Shown here piece after piece: positions 12,319 to 64,000 of a stretch of 64,000 bases of DNA (its first letter is position 1; each line of letters starts with the position of its first letter). The position numbers were made by a program, and so were the translations under genes. The notes below the pieces were generated by a model. The model was given only the letters and a program-made list of their open reading frames with translations. It did no database searches and was not told where the DNA came from. Source of the stretch: Mesorhizobium sp. Root554. Lineage in GTDB: Bacteria > Pseudomonadota > Alphaproteobacteria > Rhizobiales > Rhizobiaceae. The stretch spans positions 234,238-298,237 of the forward strand of contig NZ_LMGA01000001.1 of the NCBI RefSeq assembly GCF_001427025.1, given 5' to 3'.

Positions 12319-12906
12319 ATGCCTCCCATCGTCTACATCGTTCGCCACGGCCAAACGGCCTGGAACGCAGAGTTCCGGCTGCAGGGGCAGGCCGACACCG
12401 AACTGAATGCGCTGGGGCGCGAGCAGGCGAACGCCAACGGACACAATCTGTCGGCGCTGATCCCCGATCCGCAGGGATTCGACTTCGTCGCCAGCCCGAT
12501 GCTGCGCACCCGCCAGACAATGGAACTGGCCCGTACCGCCATGGGCCTCGATCCGAAGGCTTATCGCACCGATCCACGTCTGGTGGAGATCAATTTCGGC
12601 GATTGGCAAGGCTTCACCATGGCCGAACTCGAGGCGCGCCAGCCGGGTTCGACGCATGGCAGATTCCACTACAAATGGGATTTCCTGCCGCCGGGCGCGG
12701 GCGCGGAAAGCTATGAGATGCTGCTGCAGCGGATACGGCCCTGGTACGAGGCGCTGAGCGCCCCGACCGTGTGCGTGACCCATGGCGGCATTGTCCGCGC
12801 GCTGTTCCGGCTGATCGGCAAGATGCCGAAAAGCGAAGCCGCGGCGCTGGAAGTGCCGCAGGACCGCATCCTGCGGCTGAGCGGCGGCAGGCTTGAGTGG
12901 TTGTAG
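12319..12906 (+). CDS. Histidine phosphatase family protein (phosphoglycerate mutase-like)
   Basis: The 195-residue protein begins with the RHG catalytic motif VRHGQTAWN (residues 8-16), where the first His forms the phospho-intermediate. It has a second catalytic His in CVTHGGIVRALFR. The overall pattern fits the GpmB/CobC-like branch, which contains broad phosphatases, alpha-ribazole phosphatase and mutases. The substrate cannot be fixed. The presence of bluB four kilobases downstream makes an alpha-ribazole phosphatase role thinkable but unsupported. It is likely co-transcribed with fabI. Confidence 0.88.
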   Translation: MPPIVYIVRHGQTAWNAEFRLQGQADTELNALGREQANANGHNLSALIPDPQGFDFVASPMLRTRQTMELARTAMGLDPKAYRTDPRLVEINFGDWQGFTMAELEARQPGSTHGRFHYKWDFLPPGAGAESYEMLLQRIRPWYEALSAPTVCVTHGGIVRALFRLIGKMPKSEAAALEVPQDRILRLSGGRLEWL

Positions 12907-12933
12907 GCTGGGCTGGGACGTCAGGTCCCGCCG

Positions 12934-13182
12934 CTACTCCGACAGGGTCATGTCGGTGATGACGTTTTCGCCATCCGTCACGTCGAAGGCAATGACGATG
13001 TCCATGCCTTCCTTCAGCGCTTCGACATCCATCTCGGGATTCATCTTGTAGGTCTTGCCGTCGTCCAGCGTCAGCGTCAGGTTTTCCTTGTCGATCTTCT
13101 GGATATGGCCCTCGGTCTGGCCGGCGAAGGCGGCGGTCGAAAGCAAAAACGTGGCGGCAACCGCGCCAATCAGCATACGCAT
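12934..13182 (-). CDS. DUF1344 small secreted protein
   Basis: An 82-residue protein with a clear signal peptide (MRMLIGAVAATFLLSTAAFA, cleavage after AFA) and a mature part of about 62 residues: a compact beta-rich domain (GHIQKIDKENLTLTLDDGKTY). It matches the DUF1344 family of rhizobial periplasmic proteins as I recall it. The open frame extends to 13260, but the ATG at 13182 is preceded by GAGGG and starts the signal peptide. Convergent with the histidine phosphatase gene and divergent from aroC. Function unknown. Confidence 0.8.
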   Translation of the reverse strand: MRMLIGAVAATFLLSTAAFAGQTEGHIQKIDKENLTLTLDDGKTYKMNPEMDVEALKEGMDIVIAFDVTDGENVITDMTLSE

Positions 13183-13389
13183 GAAAGCCCTCTTGTTTTT
13201 ATTTCCTTCGCGTGGAGCGAAAGGACAATTTGGCGATGAACGGAGCAGATCAGAAACCAACAGAATGTGTCAAAACTTAATCCGGCAGATCACAACCGGC
13301 TATCATGTGTATGACAAATTGACCCTCGCGGGAAACGCAAATAGAAGGCGTTGGTAAACCGGCCGGCTGCCGGCGGGGCGCTTGAACCA

Positions 13390-14559
13390 ATGTCTCACAA
13401 CACCTTCGGCCACCTGTTTCGCGTGACCACCTGGGGCGAGAGCCACGGCCCGGCCCTTGGCTGCGTCGTCGATGGCTGCCCGCCCGGCATCCGCTTCACG
13501 CGCGCCGATATCCAGGCCGAGCTGGACCGGCGCCGGCCCGGCCAATCGCGCTTCGTCACCCAGCGGCGCGAGCCGGATGAGGTGAAGGTCCTGTCCGGCT
13601 TCGTCACGGACGATGACGGCGAGACCATGATCACCACCGGCACGCCGGTCTCCATGCTGATCGAGAATATCGACCAGCGCTCGAAGGACTATGGCGAAAT
13701 CGCCCGCCAGTTCCGTCCGGGTCATGCCGACTACACCTATGAGACGAAATACGGCATCCGCGACCATCGCGGCGGCGGCCGTTCCTCGGCGCGCGAGACG
13801 GCGGCGCGGGTGGCGGCGGGTGCATTGGCGCGCAAGGTCGTGCCGGGACTTGTCGTGCGCGGGGCGCTGATCTCGATGGGCGAGAAATCGATCGATCGCG
13901 CCAACTGGAACTGGAATTTCGTCGAGGACGCGGAAAACCCGTTCTTCACGCCGGATGCGAAGTCTGTCCGGGTCTTCGCCGACTATCTCGACGGCATTCG
14001 CAAGGCCGGCTCGTCGGTCGGAGCGGTGATCGAGATTGTCGCGGAAGGCGTGCCGGCGGGGCTGGGCGCGCCGATCTATGCCAAGCTCGACCAGGACATC
14101 GCCTCCGGCCTGATGTCGATCAACGCGGTCAAGGGCGTCGAGATCGGCAACGGGTTCGAGGCCGCCCGCATCACCGGCGAGCAGAACGCCGACGAGATGC
14201 GCATGGGCAACGACGGCAAGCCGGTCTTCCTGTCCAATCATGCCGGCGGCATCCTCGGCGGCATTTCCACCGGCCAGCCGGTGATCGCGCGCTTCGCCGT
14301 CAAGCCGACCTCGTCGATCCTGACGCCGCGCAAGTCGATCGACAAGGACGGCAAGGACGTGGATGTCATGACCAAGGGCCGCCACGACCCCTGCGTCGGC
14401 ATCCGCGCCGTGCCGATCGGCGAGGCGATGGTCGCCTGCGCCATCGCTGATCATTATCTGCGGCATCGGGGACAGGTGGGGAACGAGGCAGTCGGCAATC
14501 GGCAATCGGCAGTCGATTTCCCGGCTCAACGGAAAGTCAGGCTGGAGGACCAAGAGTGA
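13390..14559 (+). CDS. aroC: Chorismate synthase with repeat-encoded C-terminal extension
   Basis: AroC converts EPSP to chorismate using reduced FMN, the last shared step of aromatic amino acid synthesis. Start ATG 13390 gives [20 protein letters not shown], the family N-terminus; an upstream in-frame start (13351) is not conserved. Family motifs include [15 protein letters not shown]-type text and [17 protein letters not shown]. The protein is 389 residues, about 25 longer than I expect for the family. The extra tail from about residue 366 ([16 protein letters not shown]...) is encoded by a GCAGTCG-type heptanucleotide repeat, so it is a secondary extension and probably harmless. Confidence 0.93.
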
Positions 14560-57581: not shown

Positions 57582-58439
57582 CTATTTCACTTCCTCGAAC
57601 CGCAGATAGCTGATCTGCGAAACCGCGCCGGGGCTTTTGTAGTTCAGCAAAGCCATAGGCCTCACCGACTTGGTGCCGGGGCGGAACTGATTGTGGGTTT
57701 CATTGCCTTCACCGGTTATCTCGCCCTGCACTTCGACCCATCCGTCGCTGGATTTTATAATCCTGTTGGCGGTTGCCGCGTAACGGTGGGCGCCGGGGGC
57801 CGATGTCTGCAACACACCATTGCTGTCATAGGTCGCAAGGCCGACATAAGTGCTCGCGCCTTGCATTGCGGGGTCGTCGCTCAAAACCCTGATCTTTGCG
57901 GTCAGACGATAGGTCTTCGCAGGATCGATCGCGACTGCGTTGGCTGCGTAGATCGGGGATGGACCGGTCGCTTCAAGAACGTAGTCCTGACCGTCCTGCT
58001 TGCCAACATATTGCGGGTTGCCGGATGCAGCCTTTAAATTTTCCGGATCGATGGCGTATCCGGCAGCACCCCGGTCAAATTCGGGATTCGGCTTTTTCGT
58101 TCCCAGATACCACCAGCCGGCGCCTGCCAACACGATGACAGCGAGAGCTATCGCTATCAGGGGAACGGATTTGCTCCTTACGGTGGGTTCGGCAGCTCCC
58201 GGTCTCGTTGTCGATGTCTGCGAAGGCTGCTCCGGAGAATGTACCATTTCCACCTGCTCTATTTGAGTAATCGTGCTTTCCAGCGCGCCTATAAGATGGG
58301 TGAACTTTGGGTTTCCTGTGACAACGGCGCGAAATTTGTCATAAATCGCTTCCCGGGCCGCGCTCGTATTCTGCGGGAGCCTTGCGATTTCCGCCTCGAT
58401 CCGTTGCCGAAGTTTCTCAACCGGCGACTTGTCATCCAT
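57582..58439 (-). CDS. Single-pass membrane protein with helical cytosolic domain and carbohydrate-binding-like periplasmic domain
   Basis: Not recognised as a named family. The 285-residue protein has an N-terminal helical domain (about 1-65: VEKLRQRIEAEIARLP and HLIGALESTITQIEQVE), a Ser/Thr/Pro linker, one membrane helix at 91-112, and about 165 periplasmic residues. These have a beta-sandwich pattern (AVAIDPAKTYRLTAKIRVLS, GWVEVQGEITGEG, LRFEEV) like carbohydrate-binding modules of the CBM4/9 type. AGGAGG precedes ATG 58439. It converges on the epimerase, one base apart. A glycan-sensing or anchoring role is inferred. Confidence 0.75.
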   Translation of the reverse strand: MDDKSPVEKLRQRIEAEIARLPQNTSAAREAIYDKFRAVVTGNPKFTHLIGALESTITQIEQVEMVHSPEQPSQTSTTRPGAAEPTVRSKSVPLIAIALAVIVLAGAGWWYLGTKKPNPEFDRGAAGYAIDPENLKAASGNPQYVGKQDGQDYVLEATGPSPIYAANAVAIDPAKTYRLTAKIRVLSDDPAMQGASTYVGLATYDSNGVLQTSAPGAHRYAATANRIIKSSDGWVEVQGEITGEGNETHNQFRPGTKSVRPMALLNYKSPGAVSQISYLRFEEVK

Positions 58440-58500
58440 CTGGACCTCCTGCACTGGGCGGGTCGTAACCGAAGAACCCTGAAAGCTCAATATTTTCCAT

Positions 58501-58522
58501 CAAGCCTGAGCAGGTAGGCTTG
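58501..58522 (-). terminator. Hairpin downstream of tRNA-Gln
   Basis: CAAGCCT and AGGCTTG form a perfect 7 bp stem with an eight-base loop, 41 bases after the 3' end of tRNA-Gln on its strand. No T-run follows, so this is a weak or factor-assisted terminator at best. Confidence 0.35.
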
Positions 58523-58562
58523 GGCCAGGTGACGTCTGTCTACACTGCACGCCTGAATTGCT

Positions 58563-58637
58563 TGGCTGGGGCGCCAGGATTCGAACCTGGGAATGTCGGT
58601 ACCAAAAACCGATGCCTTACCACTTGGCGACGCCCCA
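58563..58637 (-). tRNA. tRNA-Gln (anticodon UUG)
   Basis: Read on the minus strand, the 75-base gene folds as a full cloverleaf. The acceptor arms are TGGGGCG and CGCCCCA, and the D-arm is GCCAAGTGGTAAGGC. The anticodon stem TCGGT/ACCGA has the seven-base loop TTTTGGT (anticodon TTG), and the T-arm is CCAGG-TTCGAAT-CCTGG. The discriminator is G and the CCA end is encoded. It lies within the polysaccharide locus. Confidence 0.96.
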
Positions 58638-58668
58638 TTGTCCGAGCCGCGTCTTCGACACGGTTGGG

Positions 58669-58697
58669 CTTATAGGCACGGCGAAGTCAAAAAACAA
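58669..58697 (-). promoter_or_regulatory. Candidate promoter of tRNA-Gln
   Basis: On the minus strand TTGTTT (58692-58697), a 17-base spacer and TATAAG (58669-58674) precede the tRNA 5' end by 31 bases. The -10 box is good, the -35 box only moderate. Confidence 0.5.
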
Positions 58698-58876
58698 TCG
58701 TCTGATTCGCCTATCTCCCAAACGCCTGAGCGGTGGTCGAAATACCCGCCAACATGCCTCCTCGACCGTATCGGGTTGGACCAAGGCTGGAAGAGTTGCC
58801 TGTGAATCCGGTTTTGTATAGACAGCGGCAAACTCATCCAGTCCCCCCCAAGGATCGTTTCAAGAGAGGATCGCAG

Positions 58877-59995
58877 ATGAATATCCAGTTCATCGATCTC
58901 GCAGCCCAGCAGTCGCGCCTTCGCCCCGAGCTTGACCGCGCGATCGCGCGGGTCCTGTCGGAAGGCCAGTACATTATGGGGCCGGACGTGGCCCGGCTGG
59001 AAAAGCAACTCGCCGAATTCTGCGGCGCCAGGCACTGCCTGACCTGTGCCAATGGTACCGATGCGCTGCAATTGGCATTGATGGCTCTGGGAATCAAACA
59101 TGGCGACGCGGTCTTTGTGCCTTCATTCACTTTCGCCGCCACGGCCGAGGTTGTGCCTTTCCTGAATGCGACCCCGGTCTTCGTTGACGTTCTTCCCGAT
59201 ACCTTCAACATCGATCCCGAAAGCCTCAAGCGCGCCATCGAAGAGGCGAAGGCCAAGGGCTTGCGGCCGGCCTGCGTGATTCCGGTCGATTTGTTCGGGC
59301 TGCCCGCCGACTACGATGCGATCGCGGCGATAGCACGGGAAAACGGTTTGAAGATCATCGGCGACAGCGCGCAAGGGTTCGGCGGTCATTATAAGGGCAA
59401 GGTCACCGGTTCGCTGGCCGATATCACCACGACCTCGTTCTTCCCGGCCAAGCCGCTTGGCTGCTATGGCGACGGCGGCGCCCTGTTTACCGACAATGAC
59501 GAACTGGCGGCGCTGATCGATTCCTACCGGGTTCATGGCAAGGGCTCGCACAAGTACTTCAACGAGCGGATCGGCATGAACAGTCGGCTGGATACGCTGC
59601 AGGCGGCTATCCTGATCGAGAAGCTCGCCGTTTATGCCGAAGAGATCGAGGCTCGCCAGCTTGTCGCGGATCGCTACAAGCGAGGGCTTTCCAACCGGTT
59701 CGAAGCGCCTTACGTGCCGGACGGGCTGAAGAGCGTCTGGGCGCAGTACACGCTGAAGCTGGCTTCGACAGAAGAGCGCGATGCGCTGCAGGCGAAGGCG
59801 AAAGCTGCCGGTGTGCCGACCGTGGTTTATTACCCCGTGCCGCTCCACAAGCAGAACGCCTATAAGGATTATCCCCGCGACCCGGCAGGATTGAAGGTGA
59901 GCGAAGATCTGTCTTCGCGGGTCATAAGCCTGCCGATGCACCCTTATCTGGAGCCGAAGGTGCAGGACGAGATCATCGCTGCCTTGCGGGATTGA
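58877..59995 (+). CDS. DegT/DnrJ/EryC1/StrS sugar aminotransferase, WbpE-like
   Basis: A 372-residue PLP enzyme that transfers an amino group to a nucleotide 3- or 4-keto sugar. The PLP lysine is in SFFPAKPLGCYGDGGA, with CANGTDALQLALMALG and GDSAQGFGGHYKGK also conserved. It resembles WbpE, which aminates UDP-3-keto-GlcNAcA, more than the 4-amino perosamine enzymes. ATG 58877 has AGAGAGG upstream; the frame open to its left is not conserved. No WbpB or WbpA partner is in the window. It supplies an amino sugar to the surface polysaccharide made by this locus. Confidence 0.9.
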   Translation: MNIQFIDLAAQQSRLRPELDRAIARVLSEGQYIMGPDVARLEKQLAEFCGARHCLTCANGTDALQLALMALGIKHGDAVFVPSFTFAATAEVVPFLNATPVFVDVLPDTFNIDPESLKRAIEEAKAKGLRPACVIPVDLFGLPADYDAIAAIARENGLKIIGDSAQGFGGHYKGKVTGSLADITTTSFFPAKPLGCYGDGGALFTDNDELAALIDSYRVHGKGSHKYFNERIGMNSRLDTLQAAILIEKLAVYAEEIEARQLVADRYKRGLSNRFEAPYVPDGLKSVWAQYTLKLASTEERDALQAKAKAAGVPTVVYYPVPLHKQNAYKDYPRDPAGLKVSEDLSSRVISLPMHPYLEPKVQDEIIAALRD

Positions 59996-60021
59996 AGTCG
60001 GATGACAGCTCCCTTCTGATA

Positions 60022-60912
60022 TTACAAGCGCCGCCCTGCTTCGTTCCACCGTCCAAGATACCGGCAGAAGATGCTGTGATCATTGCGGACTGGATCGACT
60101 AAGTCCGGGTAGCGTAAGGCAACCGCTCCGCAAACTTCGGACTGCAGTAATATTTTGTAAGCGCCGCCATCAGGAGAAAGGCGCAGCATCAGGTTTCCGG
60201 TTCGGGGAACAAGTGGTTTGATTTCGGCAAAAAAATCCGGAAATAAATTCTGGACGAGCAAGTACTTTGTTTTCACATCTTGATTCTTCTCGATCTCTCC
60301 CGACGAGATCGCCTGATAGAGTTTGGTCTCGGTTCGGGTCAGGACCTCTAAAGCATTTTCAATATTGGGTTCAGCCGACGACATGCTCTCGTTCAGCGCC
60401 TTGAGCTGCTCAAAACCTTCCGCCTGTCGATGCACATAGATCACGCCGGTTTCCTGAAGAAGGATACCGCACAGAAAAAGCAGCGAACCGCCCATGAAGA
60501 AGCCCGTGAGCGCGGGTTGCCAGATCCTGGGTTTCGTATTCGAAGGAGGCGGAGAGATATGTTCGGCGCTTCTCGGTGAGGGCAGTTCGCCCATAAGACC
60601 GGCTGCGTCTACAGAAAGCGATGTTCGCGCATGGAGGGGAGGCCTTTCAGACTTGTTTTTCCGCTCGGGGAACTCGGCTTCCACAGCTTGCAGGGAGGCA
60701 AGGAGGTTCTCCTTCAGGGCGCGAATGTCGGCTGCTTTTAGCGTCCCAACATTGTCGCCTATATAACGGGCCAACAAATCTGCGGCCGCGCCGTAACACA
60801 ACTGCCGAAATTCGGGATTTTGTGCATCGCCCATTTTCAAGAATCGTTGGATCGTAGCCACCTGGGGCTCACGAATGCTGTTTTCGGCTGCGTCATTTTC
60901 GTAGGGGATCAT
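60022..60912 (-). CDS. Single-pass membrane protein of unknown family
   Basis: Not recognised. The 296-residue protein has an N-terminal cytosolic helical region (about 25-80: FRQLCYGAAADLLARYI, LKENLLASLQAVEAEF), a proline-rich linker, one membrane helix at 134-153, and a periplasmic part of about 140 residues. That part has a helix (NESMSSAEPNIENALEVLTRTE) and a compact domain with two cysteines near the end. The plan is like that of the protein at 57582-58439. ATG 60912 lacks a clear Shine-Dalgarno; an ATG at 60834 is an alternative. It is divergent from the O-antigen ligase gene by 59 bases, and its base composition is lower in GC than the rest. Confidence 0.7.
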   Translation of the reverse strand: MIPYENDAAENSIREPQVATIQRFLKMGDAQNPEFRQLCYGAAADLLARYIGDNVGTLKAADIRALKENLLASLQAVEAEFPERKNKSERPPLHARTSLSVDAAGLMGELPSPRSAEHISPPPSNTKPRIWQPALTGFFMGGSLLFLCGILLQETGVIYVHRQAEGFEQLKALNESMSSAEPNIENALEVLTRTETKLYQAISSGEIEKNQDVKTKYLLVQNLFPDFFAEIKPLVPRTGNLMLRLSPDGGAYKILLQSEVCGAVALRYPDLVDPVRNDHSIFCRYLGRWNEAGRRL

Positions 60913-62500: not shown

Positions 62501-64000
62501 ATGCAGCACCCTAAATCTACGTCGTCATCTCATGAATCGGTGGATGAAGAGAACGAGGTCAGCTTGCTTGGTTTACTCCAGGCAATCTGGGGCATCCGCG
62601 TATGGATCGTAGGTGGGATCCTGCTGGCGCTGTTGCTGGCTGTGGTGGCGGTTCTCGCATTGCGGGTGGGCGACTATCAGACCAGATCGCAGTATGTGAT
62701 CCAGTTCCGTTTTGAAGGCCGAGCCGAAAATCGCTATCCGAATGGCGTTCCATTCTCGCTGGGCGACATCGTTGCCCCCGCTGTGCTGACGCAGGTCTTC
62801 GAAGGGCAGAAGCTGGCAGAGCAGGGCCTTTCCCTGCGCGACTTCCAGTCGGCCGTCTCTATCTCGCCCTATGTCCCGACCCGAGCCTTCATCATAGCCT
62901 CCTACAGCCAGGCGTTGAATGCCCGAGGGGCGACTGTAGCAGAACTGCGGGAAGCCCAGGATGCGCTGACTCGCGATCTCGACATCGCCTCGCAACGCTA
63001 TGCCGTCATTACCTTCTCGCAGGAAGGATTTGCGCTCCCAGCAGACAAGGTTTCCGCCATTCTGACGGACATAGCCAAGACATGGGAAAGCACCGCGATC
63101 GAAACGCGCGGCGTGCTGAAGCAGGACATCCGCACCATCGACCCCAAGATATTCGATCCGGCCAATGTCCAGGGGCTGGAGCGCTTGAGCACGCTCGATT
63201 TCGTCAGCAAGAATCTTGTCGCGCTACGCGGCTACCTGAATCAGTTGGCCAGGCTGCCTGGCGGAAATTTGGCCCAGGACAAGACAACGGGACAGAATAT
63301 CGAATCCCTGGCACGGATGGTCGACCGGTCGGCAACGCAATTGACGCAGCTGCCGGCCGACTGGGCGGATTCGACGTCGGAAGCGAAATCGCAAGCGTTG
63401 GGCCTTCCGATCAACCTCTATTCCGAAACGCTTTTCGACCCCAAGCAGGTCGACAATATGGAATATCTGGTGGCGATCGACCTGCTGCGCGATCGGGCAA
63501 AGCTCATTCGTGACAATATCCAGCAGATCGTGGCGGCGCCGTCCGGCAATCTCGCAGTAGACCCTGAGACGGGGTTGGCGGCGCGCGATGTCGACCGTCT
63601 GTTGTTCGATACCACCGAAGGGGATCTGAAGCAGTTGACCGCGCCGATTCTGTCGCTCGGCATCGCCAAAAACCCCGATTTCGTACGGATTTATTACAAT
63701 TCGCGCTTGCAGGAACTGCGGCGTTCCAAGGAAACCCTGGAAAACAAGGCGCGAGTGCTCCAGAACGCCGGGCAGAGCTATCAGGGTATGGGCCGCAACG
63801 GCCCCCCGTCGGCCCAGGGTGGCGGGGCGGAATTTCCGGGCGGCAATTCGACGGTCATCCCGCAGTTCGGCGATGCCTTCCTCGATCGCATCATTGCGCT
63901 TTCTCAGCAGGGCGGCGATGCCAAGTTCCGGCAGGAACTGCTGAAGCAGATGGTGGATCTGCAGCAGGAAAGCGCGGACCTTGATGAGGAGATCGGCAGG
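62501..64000 (+). CDS. Wzz-like polysaccharide co-polymerase/chain-length protein (3' truncated by window)
   Basis: The frame is open from ATG 62501 (GAGG upstream) to the end of the window, 500 codons without a stop. An acidic cytoplasmic N-terminus (1-30) is followed by a membrane helix (about 33-55), then a very long periplasmic part. DYQTRSQYVIQFRFEGRAEN and YPNGVPFSLGDIVAPAVL recall the Wzz domain. After residue 120 the chain is helical and Gln/Leu/Arg-rich with predicted coiled coil. At about 500 residues without the second helix yet, it is larger than classical Wzz; a kinase domain of the BY-kinase type could follow outside. It should control glycan length with the preceding polymerase. 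Confidence 0.75.
   Translation, partial: MQHPKSTSSSHESVDEENEVSLLGLLQAIWGIRVWIVGGILLALLLAVVAVLALRVGDYQTRSQYVIQFRFEGRAENRYPNGVPFSLGDIVAPAVLTQVFEGQKLAEQGLSLRDFQSAVSISPYVPTRAFIIASYSQALNARGATVAELREAQDALTRDLDIASQRYAVITFSQEGFALPADKVSAILTDIAKTWESTAIETRGVLKQDIRTIDPKIFDPANVQGLERLSTLDFVSKNLVALRGYLNQLARLPGGNLAQDKTTGQNIESLARMVDRSATQLTQLPADWADSTSEAKSQALGLPINLYSETLFDPKQVDNMEYLVAIDLLRDRAKLIRDNIQQIVAAPSGNLAVDPETGLAARDVDRLLFDTTEGDLKQLTAPILSLGIAKNPDFVRIYYNSRLQELRRSKETLENKARVLQNAGQSYQGMGRNGPPSAQGGGAEFPGGNSTVIPQFGDAFLDRIIALSQQGGDAKFRQELLKQMVDLQQESADLDEEIGR

Follow-up and report, generated by a model that had tools for sequence, protein, structure and literature searches.

Two single-pass membrane proteins of a Mesorhizobium surface-glycan locus with a predicted RgsA-type N-terminal domain

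Why should a surface-polysaccharide locus hold two proteins that each join a small cytosolic domain, through a single membrane helix, to a periplasmic module of a different kind? The question is raised by a stretch of 64,000 nucleotides from Mesorhizobium sp. Root554 (assembly GCF_001427025.1, contig NZ_LMGA01000001.1, positions 234,238 to 298,237), here called the window, in which two genes for such proteins, P1 and P2, lie close together among sugar genes (Table 1). An earlier note, made from the sequence without database searches, had taken them for two same-strand single-pass proteins of similar architecture, whose N-terminal helices should share a fold, and for a candidate pair that senses or anchors glycan. 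Sequence comparison now shows that their N-terminal domains are homologous, and that the domain is shared with a protein identified by synteny and topology as RgsA, a protein of the growing pole in Sinorhizobium meliloti. This suggests, tentatively, that P1 and P2 are accessory to the assembly of surface glycan and carry a docking domain of RgsA type.

The architecture proved to be as the earlier note had described it: both reading frames are intact and lie on one strand, and each protein has a helical N-terminus, a linker and one membrane helix. By hydropathy P1 crosses the membrane once, at residues 86-114, and so does P2 (overlapping calls at 133-153 and 142-160), with the N-terminus of both proteins in the cytosol and the C-terminal module in the periplasm. 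In AlphaFold2 models, whose confidence is low in these regions, the N-terminal helices span residues 6-19, 26-40 and 44-66 of P1 and residues 16-29, 33-53 and 60-80 of P2. Neither protein matched Pfam or NCBIfam near any cut-off, and hints from Pfam of DotU, CD1107-like and SUZ domains were discarded, since their scores lay far below the cut-offs.

The relatedness of the two N-terminal domains comes out most clearly with a hidden Markov model (HMM) built from 33 RgsA N-domains, none of them from the window. Run on the 596 stop-to-stop open reading frames (ORFs) of at least 60 amino acids (aa) in the window, it ranked P1 first (E 3.2e-4) and P2 second (E 5.3e-4), the third frame being at 0.081, and with an HMM of the P2 relatives P1 again came first (9.6e-4) and P2 second (0.27). 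None of 2000 shuffles of either N-terminus reached the real score with a combined profile lacking the rows of P1 or P2. An HMM restricted to 26 RgsA N-domains of genera other than the window's gave P1 13.6 and P2 12.7 bits, the best of 2000 shuffles reaching 11.1. It also found the P2 relatives of genomes G973 (25.6 and 20.6 bits), G468 (20.9) and G051 (17.4; G and L numbers denote genomes and loci), while those of G1002, G938, G845, G1017, G916 and G838:C55 obtained 4.2 to 9.8 bits, which lies within the range of the shuffles. In a six-frame genome search with an RgsA-only profile (A6; 24 rows, from 24 of the 26 RgsA loci), P2 relatives were recovered at 2.7e-5, 2.6e-4 and 0.077. Profile-profile comparison of the N-domains by hhalign, the E-values of which are single-template and not calibrated, relates RgsA to the P2 relatives (3.4e-11) and to a further protein type named after locus L031 (7.3e-8), and relates P1 and P2 to RgsA (1.8e-7 and 8.4e-7). 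Compared directly, neither P1 with P2 (0.26) nor P1 with the L031-type profile (0.17) shows a relation; the kinship of the P1 and P2 domains emerges because RgsA and the P2 relatives bridge them. The domain so defined has about 65 residues in three predicted helices, with an invariant R, Y and E.

Homologues of the full proteins are rare. With P2 as query, three of 101 relative genomes were found including its own, the two others holding distant relatives, one of which, used as a query in turn, defined a small family in six of 146 genus genomes, the window's among them. P1 as query was found in two of the 101 genomes, including its own, and among 397 order genomes in its own only. No model of Pfam or NCBIfam matches the RgsA-type N-domain, and no description of a shared RgsA N-terminal domain, of P1 or of P2 was recognised in the literature, most subscription journals lying outside the search. 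The earlier note could match neither protein to a named family: this stands for the periplasmic domain of P2, for which no family was found, and falls for the N-domain, which has a named bearer in RgsA.

The identity of that bearer rests on synteny and topology. An N-terminal profile (A3; six rows, P1 and P2 included) applied to nine genus genomes found a frame of 360-435 aa in all nine and a longer frame of 508-620 aa in eight. The long form adjoins purA in 34 of 34 loci checked (8/8 in the genus, 26/26 order-wide), the remaining four of 30 order-wide loci holding the shorter form. In S. meliloti RgsA is SMc00644 (PMC7327166) and PurA is SMc00643 (PMC4941405). The large N-terminal part of RgsA is cytoplasmic, and a single membrane helix joins it to a C-terminal part in the periplasm (PMC7327166); hydropathy suggests a like topology for the purA-neighbour proteins. 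Because purA synteny, by neighbouring locus tags, and topology agree, the long form is called RgsA here, the S. meliloti sequence itself standing outside the comparison. RgsA is essential and is located at the growing pole and the septum; in two-hybrid assays it interacts strongly with RgsE and RgsS and weakly with itself and TolQ, and in 2020 comparison of sequence and structure is reported to have given no hint of its function (PMC7327166).

P1 and P2 resemble RgsA in the three-helix N-terminal domain, the cytosolic N-terminus, the single membrane helix and the periplasmic C-terminal part. By contrast, RgsA as found beside purA is longer, with most frames of about 450-1030 aa, occurs order-wide and is essential in S. 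meliloti, whereas P1 and P2 are rare and sited in glycan loci. Neither of them is adjacent to purA; they lie in a sugar locus, and the window's genome has a separate purA-adjacent N-domain protein (G000:C1:2706560-2706763), therefore P1 and P2 are not RgsA. The C-terminal domain of RgsA is also absent from both (hhalign E 0.39 for the P1 domain and 0.72 for the P2 family, against 33 RgsA C-termini, some of them cut by the locus end). Compared by hhalign, the four C-terminal domains (of P1, P2, RgsA and L031-type proteins) show no kinship to one another, so that one N-terminal module is joined to at least four periplasmic kinds. A seeming C-terminal kinship of RgsA and the L031 type (8e-12) came from an RgsA set that held at least one L031-type row (L047); it was gone on the clean set and was rejected.

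The N-domain is widespread within the order. It was found in 115 of 199 order genomes and in all 180 family genomes sampled, from 109 of 109 genera, with two matches in 162 of these genomes, one in six and three or four in 12; the window's genome has four. The six single-match genomes measure 1.1-1.6 Mb, another genome of 1.4 Mb having two matches, and two of the three matches in G985 lie in one frame. Among 289 class genomes (up to 20 candidates scored in each, order members forming an uncounted part of the sample), eight matched: four order members, none weaker than E 1e-13, and four further genomes that scored 1e-3 or worse. A second widespread bearer is the L031 type (in the window's genome G000:C1:3520755-3520958 and its frame), with frames of about 350-440 aa. 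It occurs in nine of nine genus genomes, may account for the second match in many of the 162 two-match family genomes, and is like P1 and P2 in its N-domain, linker, single helix and periplasmic C-terminal domain, that domain being of a kind of its own, and its gene in the window's genome adjoins, by eye, a nitronate-monooxygenase-like gene, not a glycan locus. N-domain proteins with L031-like C-terminal domains were also found in G934 (L098; E 9.4e-8), beside glycosyltransferase, MBOAT and epimerase genes, and in G916 (L099; E 3.2e-5), beside DPBB_1 and DD-carboxypeptidase genes. Further N-domain matches are L100 and L102-L107.

What the P1 module presents in the periplasm can be narrowed by comparison with phage proteins and by its modelled fold. 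The domain matches the tail protein families phrog_21973 (E 4.4e-32) and phrog_25032 (E 3.5e-18) of PHROG, five Bacillus phage records, two of which are annotated as receptor-binding protein (32% identity to that of phage PJN02), and four plasmid records, from Shewanella, Tritonibacter and two Bacillus. In viral contigs identity reaches 44%; scans of these contigs with the P1 domain, a three-sequence profile or the Bacillus phage domain gave no relative, and scans with the Shewanella and Tritonibacter domains gave six loci. The model of P1, made from eight sequences, has a block-mean pLDDT (model confidence) of 72-90 over residues 161-285. VIA-align superposes it best on a mycobacteriophage baseplate fibre (Z 11.4, root-mean-square deviation 3.0, 139 aligned), followed by carbohydrate-binding modules (CBMs) of the families CBM22 (1dyo and 1h6x, Z 10.1), CBM15 (1gny, 9.4), CBM16 and CBM4 (both 9.0). 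With Foldseek the best matches in the Protein Data Bank (PDB) are CBM16 and CBM22 (E about 2e-5), and tail proteins are among the best viral matches that carry a name. Thus the carbohydrate-binding-like beta-sandwich proposed earlier is borne out as a fold, and the periplasmic part of P1 is predicted, on the model, to be a CBM-type sandwich related to phage tail domains. The fold extends beyond CBMs, to the ligand-binding domains of Eph receptors (Z 9.1) and to meprin (9.0), identity to the CBMs amounts to just 7-17%, no CBM model of Pfam or NCBIfam matches P1 at E ≤ 10 within the HMMER filters, and unlike CBMs the P1 domain is membrane-anchored and stands outside any glycosidase. A shared fold does not prove binding, so that P1 may be spoken of as a putative glycan binder. 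To the phage tail proteins, by contrast, the domain is homologous, and HRY-type and HNQFRPGT-like stretches are conserved; the phage proteins are long (frames of 1141 to 2716 aa where read), the domain making up one part of them, whereas in P1 it is the lone periplasmic domain on a cytosolic anchor.

The periplasmic domain of P2 has no match in Pfam or NCBIfam at E ≤ 0.1 and is unrelated to that of P1 (hhalign E 0.33). In an alignment of seven sequences (A12) C261 and C283 are invariant. A pilin-like reading, which had the two-cysteine C-terminus as its sole basis, was set aside, and the domain gave no sign of glycan binding.

Evidence for a role in glycan assembly comes from the neighbours of P2-type genes. 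A P2-family profile run on 394 family genomes gave matches that reach the periplasmic domain in at least 12 genomes. Neighbours were surveyed at 16 loci, namely the window, 12 loci from the family and N-domain searches and three from the genus search, with genes from a home-made codon-usage caller and up to eight nearest genes per locus, fewer in short stretches. Left out were G845 (L140), G973:C1:420115 (L146) and G051 (L151) as orthologues of kept loci, as well as G912:C58 (stop-bearing), G489 (contig ends in the gene) and L150 (a weak match of the C-domain only, in the own genome); L098 and L099 stand outside the count. A gene for glycan biosynthesis or modification is among the nearest genes in 11 of the 16 loci, so that the predicted repeated association with polysaccharide genes holds for P2-type genes, which recur beside glycan genes. 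The window has its epimerase, DegT and Wzy_C genes, and an epimerase, a gene type found in the window too, adjoins the P2 relative of G468. The two G973 loci have Wzy_C with Polysacc_synt_2, and an acyltransferase with SGNH; G1002 has a gene of mannose-1-phosphate guanylyltransferase type, G938 NTP_transferase and RmlD, G898 Polysacc_synt_2, Bac_transf and a glycosyltransferase, and G916 glycosyltransferases together with an ExbD/TolR gene; G1170, G831 and G838:C9 complete the count. Among the loci left out, L140 and L146 lie by eye beside glycan genes, L151 and L150 do not.

The enrichment was assessed by pooled Pfam counts, the placement of genes to loci being checked singly for part of them and otherwise by eye. 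Leading families among the 112 neighbour genes were RmlD_sub_bind (10), Epimerase (10), GDP_Man_Dehyd (9), 3Beta_HSD (9) and Polysacc_synt_2 (8), which are largely the same genes. Controls were 126 genes in 16 hand-chosen stretches of 11 genomes; the stretches lay on the contigs of G845 and of 10 test genomes out of 14, with none from G1002, G898, G1170 or G912; they held two Epimerase genes and at most one for each of the other four families. Fisher tests gave p = 0.0099 for Epimerase (10/112 vs 2/126) and p = 0.0028 for RmlD, taking the control as 1, while DegT or glycosyltransferases (3 vs 1 in the controls) did not differ significantly (p 0.27).

Relatives of the two proteins also occur together outside the window's genus. 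In G1170 a full-length P1 homologue (38% identity, 106 of 281 columns, E 3e-59) is directly preceded on the same strand by a P2 relative (41.6% over P2 residues 132-296, E 8e-47), with epimerase, glycosyltransferase and Bac_transf genes nearby, in an assembly that is 81% complete and 6% contaminated. P1-like domains without the N-domain occur in Aquamicrobium defluvii, beside polysaccharide export and sugar transferase genes of an exopolysaccharide locus, and in a Mesorhizobium metagenome-assembled genome, beside a sugar transferase gene. The spread of P1 is underestimated, the search of 394 family genomes having been made for the P2 family only.

How might such proteins act? In the reading we tentatively favour, to which we give somewhat less than an even chance, P1 and P2 would be accessory to the machinery that assembles surface glycan, docking by their RgsA-type domain and perhaps bringing assembly to the growth zone or keeping glycan there. 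The cytosolic N-domain would dock onto a shared inner-membrane scaffold of that zone (RgsA itself, RgsE/GPR, RgsS or TolQ), and the one membrane helix would present different periplasmic modules, the CBM-like sandwich of P1 and the two-cysteine domain of P2. Docking could let Wzy-type polymerisation or export work, or the nascent glycan be held, where new envelope is made, with P1 holding or recognising glycan there. The comparisons themselves show the homology of the N-domains, the topology (by hydropathy), the P1 fold (as a model), the recurring association with glycan genes and one adjacent pair elsewhere; that P1 and P2 dock, sit at the pole, bind glycan and work together is inferred. A polar site for such machinery has a parallel in LptC and LptF, inner-membrane parts of lipopolysaccharide (LPS) transport whose site in Brucella and Agrobacterium is the growth pole (PMC9938171). 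A wider form, in which the RgsA N-domain is a portable growth-pole docking module of rhizobia, fusions of which tether glycan assembly to polar growth with P1 as the glycan binder and P2 as its partner, is conceivable, though less likely than not.

A number of observations weigh against the favoured reading. Taken singly, the link of P1 and P2 to RgsA is faint. In the six-frame search an unrelated frame (E 0.023) came ahead of P1 (E 0.04), and P2 did not appear at E ≤ 10; an HMM of L031-type domains alone put P2 first among the window ORFs at 0.061 and left P1 unlisted. The RgsA HMM did not detect the N-domain in the P2 relatives of G898, G912, G831, G838:C9 and G1170 nor in the P1 homologue of G1170 (4.9 bits), and the G1170 P2 relative is without an N-terminal domain in its assembly. 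The profiles by which the RgsA loci were first found had P1 and P2 among their rows, a possible bias towards look-alikes, and shorter RgsA homologues are described as sharing mainly the C-terminal parts (PMC7327166). Among the surveyed loci, G838:C55 has a SIS-domain gene only, and no glycan gene was seen, by eye and in partial Pfam searches, at G912, G1017, G006 (permease, ftsK) and G467 (trigger factor). The P1-P2 pair was seen in two genomes only, and the AlphaFold2 model of P2, made from a single sequence, has a pLDDT of 46 and was kept out of the fold search. Finally, docking is a guess, since the contacts of RgsA may be made by some other part of it.

A rival reading makes P1 and P2 proteins with no polar role, which act as local co-factors of the polysaccharide machinery and bind the Wzy complex or the chain anywhere, the N-domain being a generic module for oligomerisation or partner binding. 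Wzy_C is the immediate neighbour of P2-type genes in the window and in G973, elsewhere they are accompanied by genes for rml, mannose-1-phosphate guanylyltransferase, Polysacc_synt_2 and Bac_transf, and the weak self-interaction of RgsA in two-hybrid tests (PMC7327166) would suit an oligomerisation module. We hold this to be quite conceivable, if well short of probable; what speaks for the pole instead is that the best-known bearer of the N-domain is a pole protein, and that strong matches are limited to the order (the four below E 1e-10 among the 289 class genomes are all order members). A sensing role, as offered in the earlier note, has P1 bind surface glycan and the cytosolic domain pass on a signal, for example in an anti-sigma-like manner. 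One-helix topology and a periplasmic fold of binding type would suit it, and there are weak NCBIfam anti-sigma matches for P1 (E 0.012) and an L031-type protein (E 0.0021). However, these matches (NF052375 for P1) fall on the linker and membrane helix, not on the N-domain, and score 15.6 and 18.1 bits where the cut-off is 100; a Pfam search of ten neighbouring proteins, a subset of the neighbours, gave no sigma-factor or kinase family; and the main bearer of the N-domain, RgsA, is a growth factor. Sensing found no support and we consider it improbable, anchoring or docking to the growth machinery being the better guess.

The phage relatives of P1 raise a further explanation, in which P1 carries a captured receptor-binding domain of a phage tail, for example to mask a glycan used by phages, and its site in a sugar locus reflects phage traffic. 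It would account for the PHROG tail matches, the identity to viral-contig domains, the five Bacillus phage records with their two receptor-binding annotations and, by eye, a prophage-like block near the P2 relative of G468. Yet related domains that lack the N-domain occur in Aquamicrobium defluvii, in its exopolysaccharide locus, and in the Mesorhizobium metagenome-assembled genome, and G1170 has retained P1 together with P2; this speaks for a domestic function. A periplasmic protein of the inner membrane would also be a poor decoy for an outer-surface receptor. We regard this explanation as very improbable.

In the Hyphomicrobiales (Rhizobiales) the envelope is synthesised at one pole, mostly without MreB, which raises the question of how synthesis is positioned. 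In P1 and P2 an order-wide domain is put to an apparently undescribed use, and the proposed link between polar growth and surface glycan lends itself to testing. Reuse of the N-domain with unrelated periplasmic functions would narrow its job to docking, and the small accessory proteins would become handles on the function of the RgsA N-domain. Polar growth would furthermore be tied to the building of the surface polysaccharides used in attachment and symbiosis, with coat synthesis following cell elongation.

The genes around P1 and P2 agree for the most part with the earlier description (Table 1): tRNA and sugar aminotransferase genes both lie between the two. Of the polymerase and chain-length genes said to adjoin them, the polymerase is borne out by Wzy_C; the chain-length identity of the other is not, its 3' fragment having no Pfam match. 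Beyond the window end (L093) follow genes for a UDP-sugar dehydrogenase, a glycosyltransferase, an acyltransferase and Bac_transf. The guanine-plus-cytosine content is 0.56 in P1, 0.53 in P2 and 0.50 in the Wzy gene, that of the window being 0.635.

Table 1. Features of P1, P2 and the adjoining genes, with positions in the window.
Feature	Position	Strand	Basis
P1 gene, 285 aa single-pass protein	57582..58439	-	intact ORF, hydropathy
P1 predicted cytosolic RgsA-type helical domain, about residues 8-62	58254..58418	-	RgsA-only HMM, hhalign, shuffles
P1 Pro/Ser/Thr-rich linker, residues 67-92	58164..58241	-	translation; low pLDDT
P1 membrane helix, residues 93-113	58101..58163	-	model helix 93-113; hydropathy 86-114
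P1 predicted periplasmic CBM-like beta-sandwich, phage-tail-related, residues 119-285	57585..58085	-	PHROG, model, fold search
P2 gene, 296 aa single-pass protein	60022..60912	-	intact ORF, hydropathy
P2 predicted cytosolic RgsA-type helical domain, residues 16-84	60661..60867	-	RgsA-only HMM, hhalign, shuffles
P2 Pro/Ser-rich linker, residues 85-132	60517..60660	-	translation
P2 membrane helix, residues 133-153	60454..60516	-	hydropathy
P2 periplasmic domain, invariant cysteines C261 and C283, no known family	60025..60453	-	alignment of 7
NAD-dependent sugar epimerase adjoining P1	56600..57580	+	Pfam Epimerase 5.1e-57
tRNA-Gln (TTG), upstream of P1	58563..58637	- (strand as P1)	
DegT-type sugar aminotransferase between P1 and P2	58877..59995	+	Pfam DegT_DnrJ_EryC1 7.7e-107
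Wzy_C O-antigen polymerase/ligase, divergent from P2	60972..62390	+	Pfam Wzy_C 2.7e-20
Putative chain-length determinant, unconfirmed, runs past window end	62501..64000	+	open frame

Some minor observations concern the sites and companions of these genes. By eye, P2 relatives with rml genes are separated by a few genes from the apparent 3' end of an SMC gene in G938 (L139, near 12721-13500) and G845 (L140, near 12994-13500), and P1 and P2 of the window and the P2 relative of G468 are likewise near the end of an SMC gene, so that these loci may share an SMC-proximal insertion site. In G468 (L094, 1102-17731) the prophage-like block, with an integrase and phage-like structural genes (by eye), comes directly after the epimerase. 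The third P2 relative of G973 (L146, 6269-7413) has its N- and C-terminal parts in different frames and may be decayed or misassembled. N-domain or P2-type genes lie beside genes that read as cysD/cysN in G1170 (L144, 3115-5834) and G855 (L103, 3176-6078), the G855 protein consisting of the N-domain and a C-terminal membrane helix only. A DUF2793-type gene recurs at N-domain or P2-type loci, called by Pfam in L144 (8087-9361) and L098 (4404-5450) and by eye in L093 (10347-11909) and L148 (11618-13054).

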